A stretch of DNA of 35,813 nucleotides from positions 1-35,813 of the forward strand of contig CAIMUZ010000216.1 of assembly GCA_903844775.1 (NCBI GenBank). The letters run 5' to 3'. Below are positions 19,509-26,440 of this stretch, in pieces; the stretch's first letter is position 1, and each line of letters begins with the position of its first letter. The notes beneath the pieces were generated by a model, which was not told the origin of the DNA, made no database searches, and saw only the letters and a list, made by a program, of their open reading frames with translations. A program made the translations under genes and the position numbers. This stretch comes from an uncultured Burkholderiales bacterium. GTDB taxonomy: Bacteria; Pseudomonadota; Gammaproteobacteria; Burkholderiales; Burkholderiaceae_C.

Positions 19509-20018
19509 TCAAGTTCCAGATTGCGTGTCCATTCGCACTTCTTCGTGTGCTAAGTTTTCAATCACTTGAAGCAATACTTTGCGGGTGATGAGCAGGTCCG
19601 CTGCCCGAACACCTTGAACGGCCACATGGTTGACATCAACCGCCAAGGGTACCAATAATTTTTTCAATGCCTTGCCTTTGACGGTGAGGTGCACATACAT
19701 ATTTTTCCGATTGGTCGGTCGTTGTCTGCGCTCAACATATCCCAATTCCTCCATGGCTTTGATGGCACTGAAGGTGGTGGGTTCCATCACGCCAGCTAAG
19801 TCACTGAGCTCTTTTTGGGTCAGGCCATCTGAGGACCACAGTATGCGTAAAAAAGTCCAATGACCAAACGAGACATTATGTTTTTGCAGACGAACCTGAA
19901 GACGTTTGTTAAAGGCACGTCCCGCATCCCTGACCAAATGGGCCAATCGATCGTCGGGCACTGACTCCTGCCAATGCCGCAAAATACTTTGCGTATCCCC
20001 AGCGATTTTAGTGACCAT
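19509..20018 (-). CDS. MarR-family transcriptional regulator of the phthalate-type module
   Basis: Winged-helix regulator of 169 residues. The MarR fold is shown by DDRLAHLVRDAGRAFNKRL (first helix), FGHWTFLRILWSSDGLTQKELSDLAGVMEPTTFSAIKAMEELGYVERRQ (helix-turn-helix, residues ~70-115) and RKNMYVHLTVKGKAL (wing). MarR proteins are usually dimeric repressors released by an aromatic acid or CoA ester. The ATG at 20018 lies inside the 3' end of the dihydrodiol dehydrogenase gene (11-base overlap), so it is the third gene of the minus operon and is translationally coupled. It would thus control its own operon through the inverted repeat at 22310 (inference). Described phthalate regulators I recall are of LysR or IclR type, which makes this arrangement unusual. 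Confidence 0.9.
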   Translation of the reverse strand: MVTKIAGDTQSILRHWQESVPDDRLAHLVRDAGRAFNKRLQVRLQKHNVSFGHWTFLRILWSSDGLTQKELSDLAGVMEPTTFSAIKAMEELGYVERRQRPTNRKNMYVHLTVKGKALKKLLVPLAVDVNHVAVQGVRAADLLITRKVLLQVIENLAHEEVRMDTQSGT

Positions 20019-21210
20019 GGTGAGCAGCGATTTGATGCGCCATCGACACGCTTTGACCGGTCTCGGCTGCTTGCAAGATGCCCAAACAAACCTCTGTGGT
20101 GGCGCGGGCCCATTCACCTGTGTGAGTGAGCGGAGTCTGCTGTTGAAGTGCTAGGCACAGCTCTTTGATGACTTCTGCGCGAGGCACCGTTGGCGCAGGC
20201 AGCGCTACAAAATCGACCTTATCTGGCCCATAGACCCAAATGCCTGAAGGCGTGAGGCGAATGTCCCCTTTTTCACAGCTCACAATGACGGGGCCAAAGT
20301 GTTGGTAGTTTGTGGCATGGGTGTCGGCGGGTGTGTAAAGATTGCCGCCATAGTTTCGGGCCGCTTTCAGGGCTGTTTCTTCTGCAGAAGTTTGCGCAGT
20401 GACGAGCCGACGCTTGGCTTGACCATAACGTTGTGCACTTTCAGACGGGGGCTTGAGGTCGCCCATCTCGCCTACGTGGTCCATCCAAATGTCGCTGTCA
20501 AAATGACCGTGACCGTTGTAGGTGACGTTGGCAAAAGCGCCACCTTCAAATTGAAGCAGCGCGCTGTAGGCGCCTTCGGTAGGGCGCGAAGGATCCCACT
20601 TCCCGGTGCACGCTTGTACGGCAGAAACTTTGCCGCCGCCCAGCAATCTCACCACATCCATTTGATGCGCAGCTTGGCTGTGAATCACGCCGCCGCCCAG
20701 TGCTGTATTCAGTTCTTCGGGTCTTCTAGGGCGGTACAAAAAATCGGTGTAATTCATGGCAGTGATCATGCGAACCTGGCCGAGTTGGCCTGATGCAATG
20801 AGCTGCCGCGCTTGCAAAACCGGTGCATTGAAGCTGTGACTGTGTCCCACCATGAGGTGAACCCCTGCGCTTTGGCAGGCCATGATCATTTGTGTGCATT
20901 CATCCAATGAAATGGCCATGGGCTTTTCAACCCAAACATGCTTGCCATGTTGTGCGGCGATGCAAGTGTGTTGTGCATGCAGGCCGTGGGGTGTGGCGAT
21001 ATAGACCACGTCGACTTCGGGCAATGCACACAGGGCTTCAACGCTATCGACTGTTGGTGCTTCAAAATCTTTTTCAAATTGCGCTCTGGCAAATGCAATA
21101 GGATCGGTTGCAGCAACCAATTTGACACGAGGGTCTTGCAAAAAAGTGGGCAGCATTTGTGAAAATGCGCGCCCCAATCCTGCAACACCAATTTTGAGAG
21201 TTTGATTCAT
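20008..21210 (-). CDS. ophB: Gfo/Idh/MocA dehydrogenase, probable phthalate 4,5-cis-dihydrodiol dehydrogenase
   Basis: NAD(P)-dependent oxidoreductase of 400 residues. The N-terminal Rossmann motif is KIGVAGLGRAFSQML, followed by VDVVYIATPHGLHAQHTCIAAQHGKHVWVEKPMAIS with the catalytic lysine of the EKP motif (~residue 94). ALGGGVIHSQAAHQMDVVRLLGG is the conserved histidine segment of the second domain. The start MNQTLKIGVAGLGRAFS and overall length resemble Pht4/OphB, which oxidise cis-4,5-dihydrodiol phthalate to 4,5-dihydroxyphthalate. The neighbouring reductase, Rieske oxygenase and decarboxylase genes support that role. By itself the family is broad, so the substrate rests on context. It starts 15 bases after the reductase gene and overlaps the MarR gene. 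Confidence 0.85.
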   Translation of the reverse strand: MNQTLKIGVAGLGRAFSQMLPTFLQDPRVKLVAATDPIAFARAQFEKDFEAPTVDSVEALCALPEVDVVYIATPHGLHAQHTCIAAQHGKHVWVEKPMAISLDECTQMIMACQSAGVHLMVGHSHSFNAPVLQARQLIASGQLGQVRMITAMNYTDFLYRPRRPEELNTALGGGVIHSQAAHQMDVVRLLGGGKVSAVQACTGKWDPSRPTEGAYSALLQFEGGAFANVTYNGHGHFDSDIWMDHVGEMGDLKPPSESAQRYGQAKRRLVTAQTSAEETALKAARNYGGNLYTPADTHATNYQHFGPVIVSCEKGDIRLTPSGIWVYGPDKVDFVALPAPTVPRAEVIKELCLALQQQTPLTHTGEWARATTEVCLGILQAAETGQSVSMAHQIAAHHGH

Positions 21211-21225
21211 GGGTTGCCCATCAAT

Positions 21226-22218
21226 TTAAAGGTCAATTTCAATCAGATCGGAATCAAGGTCAGAGGTTCCCCGAGAGACGCACACCATGATGTGGTTTGT
21301 TTTTTCGGTCTCCGTGAGTACGAGATCACGATGGTCCACTTTGCCTGAAAGTAGCGATGTTTTGCAGCTTCCACAAGTGCCGCTTTCACAAGAACTGGGG
21401 ACATCATGACCCGCTCTTCGCAGAGCTTCCAAGAGGCTCTCATTGGAACCAACCTGCAAAATCTCATTGGATTGACGCAACTTGACTTTAAAGGGCGATG
21501 ATTCAGTGACTTGTTGAGATGCACTCACACCAAAGCTCTCGAAATGAACGCGGCCTTGGGGCCAATGTCCGCTCATGTCTTTCACTGCGTCCATCAGGCC
21601 TTGTGGTCCGCAGCAATAAATGTGCGCCTGACTTGGTTTTTCTAACAAGGGCCAAAAGTCCAGTCCCAGGTCTGGATTGCCACCATCAAAATGGAAGCTA
21701 ACTTCACCGGCATTCTGCAGGGATTGAAGTTCGGGCATCAAGGCCGCACCTTCAGCATCTCTGGCGCAATAGTAAAAACGAAAATGACCCAGGCCGCCAT
21801 TTTGCTTGTGCCGCGACATGTGGCGCGCCATGGCCAGCAAGGGTGTGACCCCAATACCGCCTGCAATGAAAATGGCATTCTGGTCAGGGTCAACCATTCC
21901 AAAATCATTTTTGGGGGCAGAGACGGACAGCAAGTCGCCGACTTGGACTTGTTCAATCATGCTCTTTGAGCCGCCTCGGCCATGGGGCTCCAGCTTGACG
22001 GTAATTTCACAATATTCGGTGATCGCAGGATCGTTGCACAGCGAGTAGTTTCGACGCTGACCACCCGGAGTTTGAACGCTGATGTGCGCCCCTGCAGTGA
22101 ATGCAGGCAGGGAGGCGCCTTGTGGGTGCAAAAGTTTGAATTGCCATATATCCCGGGCCACCTGGCTTTTTTGTTGAACCAGCAGGGGGTTTAATTCAGA
22201 GTCGATCGGCAGGGTCAT
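21226..22218 (-). CDS. ophA1: Phthalate dioxygenase reductase-like FMN/2Fe-2S oxidoreductase
   Basis: Electron-transfer flavoprotein of 330 residues, built like phthalate dioxygenase reductase and VanB. An FMN domain (RNYSLCNDP for the flavin, RGGSKSMIEQVQVGDLLSVSAPKNDF) is followed by an NAD domain (IFIAGGIGVTPLLAMARHM and YCCGPQGLMDAV). A C-terminal plant-type ferredoxin domain has cysteines C277, C282, C285 and C313 (CESGTCGSC then MVC). It passes electrons from NADH to the Rieske oxygenase encoded divergently. Start ATG 22218 gives the usual N-terminus; an open frame extends 24 codons further upstream into the promoter region without family sequence. It is the first gene of the minus operon reductase-dehydrogenase-marR. 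Confidence 0.9.
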   Translation of the reverse strand: MTLPIDSELNPLLVQQKSQVARDIWQFKLLHPQGASLPAFTAGAHISVQTPGGQRRNYSLCNDPAITEYCEITVKLEPHGRGGSKSMIEQVQVGDLLSVSAPKNDFGMVDPDQNAIFIAGGIGVTPLLAMARHMSRHKQNGGLGHFRFYYCARDAEGAALMPELQSLQNAGEVSFHFDGGNPDLGLDFWPLLEKPSQAHIYCCGPQGLMDAVKDMSGHWPQGRVHFESFGVSASQQVTESSPFKVKLRQSNEILQVGSNESLLEALRRAGHDVPSSCESGTCGSCKTSLLSGKVDHRDLVLTETEKTNHIMVCVSRGTSDLDSDLIEIDL

Positions 22219-22283
22219 AGAGAGCTGATTAGAAAAAAGGAGCAGAAAAAGGGTGTCGCCAGCATGCCTGTTCAAATTGCAAC

Positions 22284-22313
22284 TTGACAAAGATCATGCT
22301 TTGCCTTTATCTT
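22284..22313 (+). promoter_or_regulatory. Candidate sigma70 promoter of the Rieske oxygenase operon
   Basis: TTGACA at 22284-22289 (perfect -35) and TATCTT at 22308-22313 (4 of 6 matches to the -10), spaced 18 bases. It points toward the Rieske gene, whose start codon lies 73 bases beyond. The -10 overlaps the 22310-22325 inverted repeat. Confidence 0.55.
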
Positions 22314-22337
22314 AGAGCCCTAAGAATAATTGCGCAA
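22309..22337 (-). promoter_or_regulatory. Candidate sigma70 promoter of the reductase-dehydrogenase-marR operon
   Basis: On the minus strand, TTGCGC (22337-22332) and TAAGAT (22314-22309) are spaced 17 bases. The -35 matches 4 and the -10 matches 4 of 6 consensus bases. It overlaps the opposing promoter and contains the inverted repeat in its spacer and -10. Weaker than the forward promoter. Confidence 0.4.
22310..22325. promoter_or_regulatory. 16-bp inverted repeat, probable MarR operator
   Basis: TCTTAG, four bases (AGCC), then CTAAGA. The arms are perfect 6-bp inverted repeats, and the inner bases pair at two of four further positions. It covers the -10 of the forward candidate promoter and the spacer/-10 of the reverse one, in the 167-bp gap between the divergent operons. 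Size and placement fit a MarR dimer site, and the MarR gene lies in the minus operon. Confidence 0.6.
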
Positions 22338-22385
22338 GTTTTTATCGTGCTCCATTGCTTAACCGCAAAGAAAAAATGTATCAAT

Positions 22386-23651
22386 ATGATTACGCCAGAA
22401 GAAAATGAATTGCTGTGTCGAGTTGAGGGCAATGCCCCTATGGGCCAGCTCATGCGCCGTCAATGGTTGGTCATCTGTCTGATCGAAGAGGTTTCTGAAC
22501 CCGACGGCACCCCCATCAAGGCGCGCATTTTGGGCGAAGATTTGGTGGTCTTTAGAGACACCAAAGGTCGCGTGGGCGTCATGGACGAATACTGCCCGCA
22601 CCGCAGAGTTTCTTTGGTTTACGGCCGCAACGAAGACTGCGGCCTGCGATGCCTTTATCACGGTTGGAAAATGGATGTGGCTGGTAATGTGGTGGACATG
22701 GCGTCTGAACCCCAAGGCAGCGGTTTGGTTGAAAAGGTCAAGCACCGCGCTTATCCCACGCATGAATGGGCTGGCTTTGTCTGGGCCTACATGGGCCCAC
22801 CCGAGCACCAGCCAGAGTTCACGCCACCCCCTTGGGCGCCTCATGCAGAGTCGCGGTTGGCTGTGGCAAAAATTATCATTCCGTGCAACTGGGCGCAAAT
22901 TTTAGAAGGCCAAATCGATTCTGCTCACAGCTCTAGTTTGCATTCATCCGACATGGTGCCCGCCCGCATCAACGGCGCTCAGGCCACTGACACGCAATGG
23001 CTTCGCCCCTCCACTGACAAGTCACCGCGCATGCAAGTGGCGAAAACCGCCTACGGTTTTAGATATGCGGCCATTCGTCGACCCATCAAGGATGCGCAGA
23101 CGCACGAATACATTCGAAGCACAGTGTTTGTCGCGCCTGCATCGGCACTTATTCCGCCAAATGATCAATATAACGTGGCCAACATGAATGTGCCCATTGA
23201 CGATCACCACACTGCGTTTCATTTCATGGCTTGGGGCTCAACCGAAACAACGCCGGATCACGCAACATGGCGCGCCTTTTTGCATGCCCAAGTAGGTCCC
23301 GACTTGGATGCTCAATTTCATCCTAGACGCACGCATGAAAATCGTTTTGAACAAGACCGCGCAGCGATGAAAGCCGGTAACTTCACGGGCATTCAAGGTA
23401 TTCCCAATCAAGACATGGCCATGTGGGTGTCGATGGGCCCTATCGTGGACAGAACCAACGATCGATTGGGCGCCAGTGACATGGCCATTGTGGCGTTTAG
23501 ACAAACGATGCTGCAAGCAGTCCGCAGTTTCATGGCAGGTGAAACGCCCATTGGGACGGGTGAAAGCCGCATCCCTGTGCAGGTTTGTGCATATCAATCT
23601 ATCATTCCCAAAACCACAGACTGGCGAAATTTTGATGCGCAGCCTGTTTAA
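22386..23651 (+). CDS. ophA2: Rieske ring-hydroxylating oxygenase, probable phthalate 4,5-dioxygenase oxygenase component
   Basis: Oxygenase component of 421 residues. The Rieske cluster ligands are C70 and H72 (CPHRR), then C89 and H92 (CLYHGW). The mononuclear iron site is D178-x2-H181-x4-H186 (DSAHSSSLH). The N-terminus MITPEENELLCRVEGNAPMGQLMRRQWL and the sequence through the Rieske domain are those of phthalate 4,5-dioxygenase (Pht3/OphA2) relatives, single-subunit enzymes served by a PDR-type reductase. It would convert phthalate to cis-4,5-dihydroxycyclohexadiene-1,2-dicarboxylate. Related enzymes act on other aromatic acids, so the substrate rests mainly on the decarboxylase gene downstream. 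Start ATG 22386 is chosen because upstream in-frame codons fall in the promoter region. A TTT receptor gene follows after 26 bases. Confidence 0.92.
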   Translation: MITPEENELLCRVEGNAPMGQLMRRQWLVICLIEEVSEPDGTPIKARILGEDLVVFRDTKGRVGVMDEYCPHRRVSLVYGRNEDCGLRCLYHGWKMDVAGNVVDMASEPQGSGLVEKVKHRAYPTHEWAGFVWAYMGPPEHQPEFTPPPWAPHAESRLAVAKIIIPCNWAQILEGQIDSAHSSSLHSSDMVPARINGAQATDTQWLRPSTDKSPRMQVAKTAYGFRYAAIRRPIKDAQTHEYIRSTVFVAPASALIPPNDQYNVANMNVPIDDHHTAFHFMAWGSTETTPDHATWRAFLHAQVGPDLDAQFHPRRTHENRFEQDRAAMKAGNFTGIQGIPNQDMAMWVSMGPIVDRTNDRLGASDMAIVAFRQTMLQAVRSFMAGETPIGTGESRIPVQVCAYQSIIPKTTDWRNFDAQPV

Positions 23652-23677
23652 TTATTCTAATCACTGGAGACATGCCC

Positions 23678-24655
23678 ATGAAACGTCGTGAACTATTGGC
23701 TGCATCGGCAGCACCATTTTTGGCAGGTCTGCAAATGCCTGCATGGAGTCAATCTACTTTTAATTTCACAAAGTCTGTGAAGTTCATCGTACCTTATGCA
23801 CCTGGTGGCTTGCCTGATACGGTGGCCCGAGTTTTTGCGCAGCGTATCGGCGAGCGCATCGGCCAAGGTGTTGTGATTGAAAACAAGCCGGGTGGCAACG
23901 GCGTGGTCTCGGCACAAGCCTTGTCCAGCAGTCCCAACGATGGGCATACTTTTTTGGTGACCGATGGCTCGATGTTCTCCATCAACCCCCTCATTTACAA
24001 AAGCTTGGCCTATGACTTGAAGCGTGACTTTGCACCCGTTTCTTTGTTGGCGCGCTCGCCCTTGTATTTGGCGGTCCATCCCAAGGTGCCGGTCAATACC
24101 TTGCAAGAATTTGTGCAATATGTCAAAGCGCGTCCAGACCAGTTGAATTACGGCTCTTCTGGCATTGGCAGCAGCCACCACCTCACCATGGAAGCCATCA
24201 AGGCTTCTTTAGGTCTCGATATCAGGCACGTTCCATTCAGAGGATCAGGCCAGTCTGTGCCTGCCCTGATCGGTGGTCAAGTGGAATGTTTGTTCTCAGC
24301 TTTGCCTTCACTGGCGGGCTTTGCTAAAAATAACCAGGTCAAAATATTGGGTAGCAATGCGGCTCAGCGATCTTCTTTGATGCCGCAGGTGCCCAGTATT
24401 TCTGAAGTGATTCCTGGTTTTGATTTTGCGGTCATCATTGGCGTGCTTGCATCTTCTAATGCACCTGCCGGTGCCATCGCACGATTGAGCGCAGAGGCAG
24501 CTGCTGTGAAAAGTCATCCCGAACTTTTGACCACCCTGGGAACGGCTGGGATTGACGCTGTTGGCAGTACACCCGCAGACTACGCCAAAGCCATTCAGTC
24601 GGAAAACGAGCGTTTGGCCAAAGCGGTTGCGATCGCTGGACTCAAGCCCGAATAA
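23678..24655 (+). CDS. TTT substrate-binding protein (Bug/TctC family) in the phthalate-type operon
   Basis: Second Bug/TctC periplasmic receptor of the window, 325 residues. MKRRELLAASAAPFLAGLQMPAWSQ is the export signal. SVKFIVPYAPGGLPDTVARVFAQRI is the ligand-loop motif and VVIENKPGGNGVVSAQAL the second. RHVPFRGSGQSVPALIGGQVECLFSALPS is typical of the family. Start ATG 23678 is eight bases after GGAG; ATG 23672 is only two bases from it. No TctA/TctB genes accompany it. Its place between oxygenase and decarboxylase genes suggests it captures phthalate or a similar aromatic diacid, as IphC does for isophthalate in Comamonas (analogy, not proof). It is clearly different in sequence from the receptor at 2871. 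Confidence 0.94.
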   Translation: MKRRELLAASAAPFLAGLQMPAWSQSTFNFTKSVKFIVPYAPGGLPDTVARVFAQRIGERIGQGVVIENKPGGNGVVSAQALSSSPNDGHTFLVTDGSMFSINPLIYKSLAYDLKRDFAPVSLLARSPLYLAVHPKVPVNTLQEFVQYVKARPDQLNYGSSGIGSSHHLTMEAIKASLGLDIRHVPFRGSGQSVPALIGGQVECLFSALPSLAGFAKNNQVKILGSNAAQRSSLMPQVPSISEVIPGFDFAVIIGVLASSNAPAGAIARLSAEAAAVKSHPELLTTLGTAGIDAVGSTPADYAKAIQSENERLAKAVAIAGLKPE

Positions 24656-24673
24656 TTAACTCAGAGCCCCCGA

Positions 24674-25666
24674 ATGGCCAAACTACCTCTCAGCTTTGCG
24701 TGTTGGAATTACGATCGCACCCGCGCCTTGATGGACGGTAGTGTGCAAGTGGACGGCATTGATTTAAATTATCTCAATCTTCCCGTAGAGGAAACATTTT
24801 TTCGCATGGCTCGTTTTCGCGAGTTTGATGTCTGTGAAATGTCTTTGTCGTCTTACTGCGTGTCCTTGCACAAACCCGACCGGCCTTTCATTGCCATTCC
24901 CGTTTTTCCTTCCCGCTTCTTTCGTCACTCTAGCATCTACGTGAATGCCAATTCAGGGATCAATGAGCCTCAAGATTTGATTGGCAAACGCATCGCAAGT
25001 CCTGAATACCAAATGACGGCGCCCGTCTGGATTCGCGGCATTCTGCAAGACCACTATGGCGTGCCTGTTGATGCCCAGCCCTACTTGTTTGGTGGTGAAG
25101 AGGAAACGGGACGCATTGAAAAGCAGAAACTTAACTTGCCTCCCAATATTAAGGTGCACCCTATTGGACCTCACCAAACCTTGTCGCAGATGTTGCACGA
25201 TGGCGAGTTGGACGCACTTTATACCGCACGCATGCCATCTTCATTTTTAAAGGGCGATGGCAAAGTAAAGCGATTGTTCGAAAACTATGTCGAAATAGAG
25301 CGAGCCTACTATCGTCAAACTAAAATTTTCCCCATCATGCACACCGTGGTCATTCGCCGTGAAGTCTATGAAGCCAACCGATGGATTGCACAGTCTCTGA
25401 CCAAGGCTTTTATTGAGGCGCAGCGTAAAACCTACGAAGATCTGTATGAAACTGCAGCACTCAAGGCCATGTTGCCATGGTTGACTGCGCACGTAGAAGA
25501 GGCGCGTAAAGAGTTTGGCAACGACTGGTGGTCTTATGGCCTGGAGAAAAACGTAGATGTGTTGGAAACTTTCACGCGCTACCATCATGAGCAAGGCTTA
25601 TCGCCGCGCAAGTTGAAGCCTCAAGAGTTGTTCGCGCCTGAGTCGCTCGAAGCTTTCAAAATCTAA
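24674..25666 (+). CDS. ophC: 4,5-dihydroxyphthalate decarboxylase
   Basis: Protein of 330 residues matching the Pht5/OphC group that removes one carboxyl group from 4,5-dihydroxyphthalate to give protocatechuate. Characteristic text: LSFACWNYDRTRALMDGSVQVDGIDLNYLN, then EETFFRMARFREFDVCEMSLSSYCVS and FPSRFFRHSSIYVN. The fold is that of periplasmic binding proteins, but there is no signal peptide, as expected for the cytoplasmic enzyme. This is the most substrate-specific gene of the cluster and is the main argument for phthalate as the growth substrate. An uncharacterised binding-protein-like paralogue is the alternative. It follows the TTT receptor gene by 18 bases. Confidence 0.9.
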   Translation: MAKLPLSFACWNYDRTRALMDGSVQVDGIDLNYLNLPVEETFFRMARFREFDVCEMSLSSYCVSLHKPDRPFIAIPVFPSRFFRHSSIYVNANSGINEPQDLIGKRIASPEYQMTAPVWIRGILQDHYGVPVDAQPYLFGGEEETGRIEKQKLNLPPNIKVHPIGPHQTLSQMLHDGELDALYTARMPSSFLKGDGKVKRLFENYVEIERAYYRQTKIFPIMHTVVIRREVYEANRWIAQSLTKAFIEAQRKTYEDLYETAALKAMLPWLTAHVEEARKEFGNDWWSYGLEKNVDVLETFTRYHHEQGLSPRKLKPQELFAPESLEAFKI

Positions 25667-25687
25667 TTTCACAGAAAAGAGTTCCAC

Positions 25688-26440
25688 ATGGAGTTTTCGC
25701 TCAGCACCGATGTGGTGCTGATCACTGCGGCGTGTACTGCAGCGATTCTTTTGGGTGGCATTGTCAAAGGCACGCTGGGTGTTGGTTTGCCTCTTTTTGC
25801 TGTACCCCTCATGTCACTCATGATTGGCAGTACACAAGCCATCGCATTGGTTGCTGCGCCCGTGTTGGCCTCCAACATTTGGCAGGCTTGGCAAGAAGGC
25901 AGTTGGAAGGCCAGTCTGAAACGCTTTTGGCCGCTCATGCTGACGCAAGGCATCATGACCGTGTTAGCGGTTCAATGGACCTTGTCTTTCAGTGTGAAAC
26001 AACTCAACATGCTGGTTGCCTTTGCCGTGGTGCTGGCGGTGGTGTCCATGCTTTTCAAACCCAGCTTTAGCATTCCACCTGACAAAGAAAAGTGGATTGG
26101 CGCATTGGTGGGCGTGCTGTCGGGCATGTTGGGGGGTGTTTCTTCACTGATGGGACCTATCTTGATCAGCTACACCATGTCTTTGAAAATGCAGAGAGAT
26201 GAATTTGTCGGCGCCATCAGCGTGATTTATTTGAACGCTGCATGGCCGCTTTATGTGGCCATGTACAGTTTTGGACGCATGGAAACTGTTGACCTTGGGT
26301 ATTCTTTCTTGGCGCTCATTCCCATGGCGCTGGGTTTAAAGGCGGGTCAAAAATTAAGGCATCGATTGAGTGAAGATGGATTCAGAAAAGCCTTGCTGGC
26401 GTTCTTGGTTTTTGTCGCCAGTTTGTTGGTGTTGCGATAG
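25688..26440 (+). CDS. TauE/SafE-family membrane permease
   Basis: Integral membrane protein of 250 residues with about seven to eight hydrophobic helices. The internal repeat typical of TauE/SafE is visible: ILLGGIVKGTLGVGLPLFAVPLMSLMIG in the first half and ALVGVLSGMLGGVSSLMGPILISYTMSL in the second. Family members move sulfite, sulfoacetate, taurine-derived and other organic anions. As last gene of the Rieske-TTT-decarboxylase operon (21-base gap) it could carry the aromatic acid across the inner membrane; the window offers no other permease for the pathway. That role is inference. Convergent with the YqaA-type gene. Confidence 0.9.
   Translation: MEFSLSTDVVLITAACTAAILLGGIVKGTLGVGLPLFAVPLMSLMIGSTQAIALVAAPVLASNIWQAWQEGSWKASLKRFWPLMLTQGIMTVLAVQWTLSFSVKQLNMLVAFAVVLAVVSMLFKPSFSIPPDKEKWIGALVGVLSGMLGGVSSLMGPILISYTMSLKMQRDEFVGAISVIYLNAAWPLYVAMYSFGRMETVDLGYSFLALIPMALGLKAGQKLRHRLSEDGFRKALLAFLVFVASLLVLR

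Follow-up and report, generated by a model that had tools for sequence, protein, structure and literature searches.

Positions 19509–26440 of the DNA analyzed here (35,813 nucleotides of contig C216 from an uncultured Burkholderiales bacterium, hereafter the window) carry seven genes that very probably constitute a chromosomal, MarR-repressed o-phthalate upper-pathway module, leading from phthalate to protocatechuate, in a Limnohabitans-like freshwater bacterium. We also propose, with moderate confidence, that this module is governed by a previously undescribed single-operator phthalate switch, in which one MarR regulator encoded in the reductase operon would close two divergent promoters via one ATCTTAG-N4-CTAAGAA site, and that regulator and site recur across Comamonadaceae through cluster rearrangement and exchange between two decarboxylase clades. 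The pathway itself is ordinary; what merits a specialist's attention is the conserved operator and the existence of two decarboxylase clades.

The oxygenase and the predicted route to protocatechuate

The oxygenase is well supported as a member of the phthalate 4,5-dioxygenase (PDO/OphA2) family and is predicted to convert o-phthalate to its cis-4,5-dihydrodiol. It shared 294 identical residues over an alignment of 419 positions (70.2%) with the solved phthalate dioxygenase of Comamonas testosteroni KF1 (7fjl), and retained all six residues checked (D178, S182, R207, R244, I256, and F280 in KF1 numbering). According to the excerpted text of PMC12445078, S182, R207, and R244 bind the substrate in the KF1 enzyme and I256 and F280 are important, while the isophthalate dioxygenase (9ina) has V178 for S182 and L198 for R207. 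The window protein combines PF00355 and PF19301, the Rieske and LigXa_C pairing of the single-subunit PDO/OphA2 family, and none of the module's seven genes was recognized as a beta subunit in a Pfam search. For comparison, a scan of genome_contigs gave 530 stretches encoding a relative, of which the best 80 loci were kept and all examined, so that the locus counts given throughout describe the closest relatives only. In a 90-row tree that included all 80 loci (midpoint root, several long branches, isophthalate dioxygenase on an end branch of 10), the oxygenase clustered with the characterized phthalate dioxygenase and apart from the isophthalate dioxygenase, in agreement with the placement that an earlier note on this DNA had proposed to check by phylogeny. 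The six-residue set was identical in 86 of the 90 rows; it differed in the isophthalate dioxygenase, in one Sphingobium sequence with W in place of F280, and in two relatives with V in place of I256.

The dehydrogenase and reductase have, by homology, close solved phthalate-pathway relatives (7wzd and 2pia, respectively), the reductase aligning with 2pia over residues 10–314 of 321. Together with the decarboxylase, identified through PDB 9jp7 and the weakest of these assignments, they uphold the route from phthalate to protocatechuate that the earlier note had drawn from known biochemistry. In the proposed sequence of events, the tripartite tricarboxylate transporter (TTT) receptor would capture phthalate, which would be imported with a TctA/TctB pair encoded elsewhere; the Rieske oxygenase and its reductase would form cis-4,5-dihydrodiol phthalate, the Gfo/Idh/MocA enzyme would oxidize this to 4,5-dihydroxyphthalate, and the decarboxylase would release protocatechuate and CO2. 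The upper set had been described as seemingly complete; candidate enzymes for all three steps are present, and uptake also needs a TTT membrane pair from elsewhere. Five TctA genes outside the module are possible membrane partners, so that uptake membrane proteins are available in the genome, their pairing with the receptor being putative. TTT is treated as a known phthalate uptake route in the excerpted text of a review (PMC13040137). The TauE/SafE protein, whose gene was found at 13 of the 80 loci, is possibly a permease or exporter of a pathway acid.

Protocatechuate would then enter a 4,5-cleavage pathway that is very likely encoded on contig C58 of the same genome, where a cluster within ∼6 kb (L059 4974–11159) holds a Gfo/Idh/MocA dehydrogenase, a LigB-type subunit, LigK, an oxalomesaconate (OMA) tautomerase, and two Amidohydro_2 proteins. 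The LigB-type extradiol dioxygenase beta subunit reached 570 bits, with the subfamily cut-off at 317 (NF009903), LigK 394 against an equivalog cut-off of 304.5 (TIGR02798), and the OMA tautomerase 504 against an equivalog cut-off of 440 (NF033377). One Amidohydro_2 protein had only a sub-cut-off NCBIfam match and the other had no NCBIfam match; presumably, the two genes correspond to LigI and LigJ. The genome also holds three LigB-type proteins and one intradiol dioxygenase-like protein. On homology, the expectation that ring cleavage is encoded elsewhere in the genome was borne out.

We consider it quite unlikely that the true substrate is a different aromatic diacid or some substituted phthalate (isophthalate, terephthalate, 4-hydroxyphthalate, or a humic phthalate-like photoproduct) in place of o-phthalate. 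In favor of such a substrate, humic matter occurs in freshwater, where Limnohabitans lives, the decarboxylase falls in the clade that lacks 9jp7, and the receptor's closest solved relative, 8hka (E 5e-49), binds terephthalate, with further Bug receptors scoring nearly as well. However, S182 and R207, replaced in the isophthalate dioxygenase, are kept in the window oxygenase. This enzyme is a LigXa_C protein of the single-subunit type, unlike terephthalate dioxygenase, which is made up of a large and a small subunit, and the dihydrodiols of isophthalate and terephthalate are decarboxylated in the dehydrogenase step, so that a separate decarboxylase is not needed (PMC13040137, excerpted text). 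An identity as isophthalate or terephthalate dioxygenase was rejected on the retained active-site residues and the single-subunit oxygenase.

Several points weigh against an o-phthalate pathway as outlined. Receptor specificity is a prediction, and the Bug-type receptor 2dvz scores nearly as well as 8hka (E 2e-47). The decarboxylase is only 42.7% identical to 9jp7, which sits in the other clade. On contig C58, the equivalog model for an alpha/beta fusion form of protocatechuate 4,5-dioxygenase (NF009912) gives 534, short of its cut-off of 837, and the hydrolase model is also under its cut-off. Activity, growth, and binding are all predicted for the module.

The seven open reading frames (ORFs) of the module are densely packed and form two divergent units, a minus-strand unit of reductase, dehydrogenase, and MarR genes and a plus-strand unit of Rieske oxygenase, TTT receptor, decarboxylase, and TauE genes (Table 1). 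All ORFs are present with the positions and strands first listed, and domain matches agree with the assigned names for six of the seven genes (MarR, GFO_IDH_MocA, FAD/NAD/Fer2 reductase, Rieske plus LigXa_C, TctC, and TauE). Some listed starts were too early, and start codon lists and homology boundaries point to likelier ATG codons at 22386 for the oxygenase, 22218 for the reductase, and 20018 for MarR. From that start, the MarR gene overlaps the end of the dehydrogenase gene (20008) by 11 bases, and the remaining gaps within units are 15–21 bases; each unit is probably co-transcribed. The module is flanked by ychF on one side and by a VTT-type gene, which we take to be DedA-like, dusB, and purH on the other (gene names tested for the window). 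The source genome comprises 2.52 Mb in 235 contigs and is 78% complete.

Table 1. Genes and candidate control elements of the phthalate module (positions in the window).
Feature	Position	Strand	Basis or remark
MarR-family regulator, last gene of the minus-strand unit	19509..20018	-	PF01047 E 7e-11; proposed phthalate-responsive repressor
Gfo/Idh/MocA dehydrogenase	20008..21210	-	PDB 7wzd '4,5-dihydroxyphthalate dehydrogenase', E 6.5e-146 over residues 4-390
Phthalate dioxygenase reductase (flavin/NAD/plant-type 2Fe-2S)	21226..22218	-	PDB 2pia PHTHALATE DIOXYGENASE REDUCTASE, E 5e-99
Sigma-70-like promoter of the oxygenase unit, TTGACA-18-TATCTT (10/12)	22284..22313	+	Sequence pattern
Palindrome ATCTTAG-AGCC-CTAAGAA, proposed MarR operator, overlapping the oxygenase -10 element	22309..22326	.	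Pattern and conservation
Possible reductase-unit promoter, TTGCGC-17-TAAGAT	22309..22337	-	Weak match, tentative; spacer and -10 hexamer over the palindrome
Phthalate 4,5-dioxygenase, oxygenase component (Rieske, LigXa_C)	22386..23651	+	70.2% identity to KF1 PDO 7fjl
TTT (TctC/Bug) periplasmic receptor, probable phthalate binder	23672..24655	+	PF03401 E 1.6e-60
4,5-dihydroxyphthalate decarboxylase (predicted), class A of two clades	24674..25666	+	42.7% identity to 9jp7; 62.4% to Novosphingobium KA1 gene
TauE/SafE-family membrane protein, possible permease/exporter of a pathway acid	25688..26440	+	PF01925 E 4e-27

A MarR regulator and a conserved palindrome between the divergent units

The regulator carries a winged-helix MarR domain. 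Between the reductase and oxygenase genes of the window lies a conserved palindrome, ATCTTAG-N4-CTAAGAA, which overlaps the -10 hexamer of TTGACA-18-TATCTT; a MarR-type catabolic repressor would be expected to bind a palindromic operator over its target promoter, and such binding is predicted here. The palindrome (22309–22326) is a probable MarR operator for both units. It was found near the oxygenase start with no mismatch at 24 and with one mismatch at 6 of the 39 loci where reductase and oxygenase genes diverge, so that 30 of these loci have no more than a single mismatch. Two of the 24 perfect copies fall inside the oxygenase when its sequence is taken from 34 codons ahead of the likely start. 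Across the 80 loci (1.17 Mb), there were 28 perfect palindromes, all beside the reductase gene: 24 upstream of the oxygenase and four upstream of the receptor, the latter in Hydrogenophaga-type reductase|receptor spacers (L131, L134, L136, and L140).

In 42 distinct site contexts, which were chosen for at most one arm mismatch so that arm conservation stems partly from selection, the four spacer bases were unconserved (0.38–0.48), and unselected neighbors reached 0.60–0.95 on the left and 0.76–0.83 on the right. The distance from an upstream perfect TTGACA to the beginning of the site was 25 bases in 24 of these contexts, 24 bases in 5, and 34 bases in 6. A promoter and terminator scan of the region did not exceed shuffled sequences (7 promoters vs. 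a mean of 5.8), so only the conserved spacing between TTGACA and palindrome counts here. The minus-strand pattern TTGCGC-17-TAAGAT was not among the sites listed by that scan and was seen in a direct read-out of the sequence; since it overlaps the palindrome, one site could close both units. In the proposed mechanism, MarR would bind the single palindrome at the oxygenase -10 element and thereby repress both divergent units. Its gene being the last in the reductase unit, the regulator would hold down its own production as well, and it would be released by phthalate or by an intermediate formed early in the pathway.

Regulator and oxygenase genes occurred together. A MarR match (E <= 1e-15) was present in exactly the 6 of 40 genomes (own included) with an oxygenase of at least 64% identity. 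Among 150 family genomes (own included; cut-offs of E <= 1e-130 for the oxygenase and E <= 1e-30 for MarR), the oxygenase was found in 13, MarR in 15, and both in 12, with a Fisher p of 3e-14 (3e-13 without the own genome) that, for related genomes, is not a probability under independent evolution. A MarR gene (at least 45% identity) was present at 67 of the 80 loci; among the 50 loci with at least 6 kb on both sides, 48 had one. MarR genes accompany phthalate clusters in Variovorax, Polaromonas, Pseudomonas, and others.

That the MarR gene is an unrelated neighbor, or that the palindrome serves another regulator, appears unlikely to us. Binding of MarR to the palindrome is a prediction, and most non-divergent clusters, including many with a MarR gene, lack the palindrome close to the start of the oxygenase. 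However, MarR and oxygenase co-occur closely across genomes and through several rearranged gene orders, and in the Hydrogenophaga-type layouts the palindrome lies instead in the divergent reductase/receptor spacer. The co-occurrence led us to reject MarR as a stray neighbor.

Other observations count against a MarR switch acting through this palindrome. One genome has the oxygenase without MarR (G162), and three have MarR without the oxygenase (G058, G061, and G091). The palindrome carried two mismatches at 8 and three at 1 of the divergent loci (9 of 39). Of the 41 non-divergent clusters, most of which carry MarR, only 2 have a copy with at most one mismatch close to where the oxygenase begins. 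Genome-wide, palindrome counts were not above a reversed-pattern control: TCTTAG-N4-CTAAGA has one perfect copy in the own genome, at the phthalate spacer, and the comparison there was 2 vs. 2 with at most one mismatch and 1 vs. 1 for perfect copies. Across 40 genomes, perfect palindromes occupied 5 places in 5 genomes (the phthalate spacers of G000, G006, G012, and G020, and one other place in G038), and the control pattern occupied 8 places spread over 7 genomes, with one copy in G000. Rarity alone thus proves nothing, and the evidence lies in the place and conservation of the palindrome.

No report of a MarR operator for phthalate genes was found in titles and abstract openings of an open-access collection of papers, in searches that were not all directed at operators, and the conserved switch site looks undescribed. 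Such an operator would offer something concrete on which to build an o-phthalate-specific biosensor. According to the excerpted text of PMC13040137, the majority of reported sensors are for terephthalate, and known o-phthalate clusters are named as a resource.

Two decarboxylase clades and the distribution of the module

The third enzyme had no Pfam match at E 0.001, and was identified via PDB 9jp7 ('4,5-dihydroxyphthalate decarboxylase', E 1e-77) in an end-to-end alignment. It shares 62.4% identity with a Novosphingobium KA1 gene annotated as the same enzyme, roughly 44% with the decarboxylases found in the other layouts, and 43–46% with the class B members from Variovorax, Polaromonas CJ2, and Pseudomonas luteola. 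Since 9jp7 and the CJ2 protein share 78% identity, 9jp7 sides with class B; class A takes in proteins encoded on plasmids of Sphingobium, Novosphingobium KA1, Caballeronia, and Sinorhizobium. A branch with 100/100 support split class A (34 rows) from class B (36 rows) in an 81-row tree covering 32 of 36 class A loci and all 35 class B loci (L065, L066, L073, and L089 were omitted for a length below 300 aa or a stop).

It is highly improbable that this 330-aa protein is a transporter substrate-binding protein, with the third step performed elsewhere. Such an identity would fit a weak TIGR01728 SsuA-like match and the 'ABC transporter substrate-binding protein' label on 40 of 60 listed plasmid rows matching the decarboxylase, 6 being labeled 4,5-dihydroxyphthalate decarboxylase (196 records matched). 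However, the protein start (MAKLPLSFACWNYD) has no apparent signal peptide as judged by eye, neither the six remaining genes of the module nor the tested flanking genes include an ABC permease or ATPase, the alignment with 9jp7 runs over the full length, and a decarboxylase-family gene was called at 71 of the 80 oxygenase loci. A true binding protein was therefore rejected. Where the plasmid rows are true decarboxylases, the transporter label conceals phthalate clusters from name searches. Two same-genus genomes have a class A decarboxylase (G003:C105:3183-4172, with 96% identity to the window protein, and G008:C190:6-887, with 90%) but no close oxygenase or MarR match; at 81% and 85% completeness, respectively, assembly gaps and partial loss are both possible.

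The 39 divergent loci comprised 34 with class A, 0 with class B, and 5 without a called decarboxylase, and the 41 non-divergent loci comprised 35 with class B, 2 with class A (L066 and L096, whose contigs end less than 750 bases upstream of the oxygenase), and 4 without a call. Mapping class on the oxygenase tree required three changes (0% of bootstrap trees needed one), but the starred branches force only one, so exchange of decarboxylases is suggested and not shown.

Divergent reductase|oxygenase adjacency was found at 39 of the 80 best loci, and the full MarR-dehydrogenase-reductase|oxygenase-receptor-decarboxylase order at 28 of these 39, four of the 28 having TauE as well; several of the remaining divergent loci are cut by contig ends. 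The seven-gene order with ychF, DedA-like gene, and dusB flanks recurred in L063, L064, L067, and L068 among named records and in G006, G012, and G020 (L068 and G020 are the same contig); the closest named-record relatives include Limnohabitans (L063 92%, L064 91%, and L068 86%), L064 being from Limnohabitans sp. Rim11, and L074, from JirII-31, is another relative with a named record. The identical order and chromosomal spot in relatives indicate that the seven-gene arrangement is not due to chance.

The module occupied the same chromosomal spot in 3 of 23 other same-genus genomes (G006, G020, and G012), or 4 of 24 with the own genome. Limnohabitans is an abundant freshwater genus, and an o-phthalate upper pathway is thereby placed on its chromosome at one common site, which argues against recent plasmid acquisition there. 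A close oxygenase was present in 4 of the 23 other genomes, the fourth (G019) having another layout and a class B decarboxylase, and the module is held by a minority of the genus.

Three loci stood out among the relatives. L066, a contig in a metagenome-assembled genome titled Singulisphaera sp. GP187 (a planctomycete), encodes an oxygenase 90% identical to that of the window and probably belongs to a mislabeled or contaminated assembly. On a Massilia sp. WG5 plasmid (L143), a phthalate cluster (with decarboxylase, TauE, nadC, reductase, and dehydrogenase among its genes) lies between two IS6 transposase genes, and the genes behind the first IS6 copy recur behind the second, which is likely a mobile or duplicated unit. 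On the Acidovorax carolinensis P3 plasmid (L043), decarboxylase, dehydrogenase, and receptor match piecewise in different frames, and the cluster looks decayed or frameshifted.

Comparison with known systems

The pathway is known and the layout is common to many relatives. The earlier note had held that the layout differs from known clusters and that a MarR regulator sets this cluster apart; neither claim is supported, given the divergent and MarR-bearing loci counted above and a MarR gene, phtR, printed for Sphingobium yanoikuyae SHJ. The excerpted text of a review (PMC13040137) describes IphR and has no mention of a MarR regulator, its sole 'marr' match being an author name.

The pht cluster of S. 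yanoikuyae SHJ (phtR phtC phtB phtAa phtD phtAc phtAd) resembles the window module in placing MarR phtR beside decarboxylase, dehydrogenase, and phthalate 4,5-dioxygenase genes, and phtR is said to take part in regulation, a statement that stands without an experiment alongside in the excerpted text (PMC6051330). In contrast to the window, ferredoxin and ferredoxin reductase replace the phthalate dioxygenase reductase (PDR)-type reductase, phtD is present, and TTT receptor and TauE are not listed in that text (PMC6051330). Other Sphingobium plasmids, including one or more from S. yanoikuyae, encode class A decarboxylases with 63–64.5% identity to that of the window.

Comamonas sp. E6 has the same four enzymes (ophA1, ophA2, ophB, and ophC), a predicted TTT receptor (of the tripartite aromatic acid transporter type, TAAT) nearby, and downstream 4,5-cleavage (PMC4472898). 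It differs in gene order, as far as locus tags tell, and a MarR gene is unmentioned (PMC4472898). With C. testosteroni KF1, the likeness lies in the phthalate dioxygenase (PDB 7fjl, 7v25, and 7v28; 70% identity, six checked residues kept), and the same activity is predicted for the window enzyme. Finally, Polaromonas naphthalenivorans CJ2 pPNAP04 and a Variovorax sp. WDL1 plasmid cluster an oxygenase (68–69% identical) with decarboxylase, TTT receptor, reductase, dehydrogenase, and MarR genes as the window does, but in other gene orders and with a class B decarboxylase 43–44% identical to that of the window.

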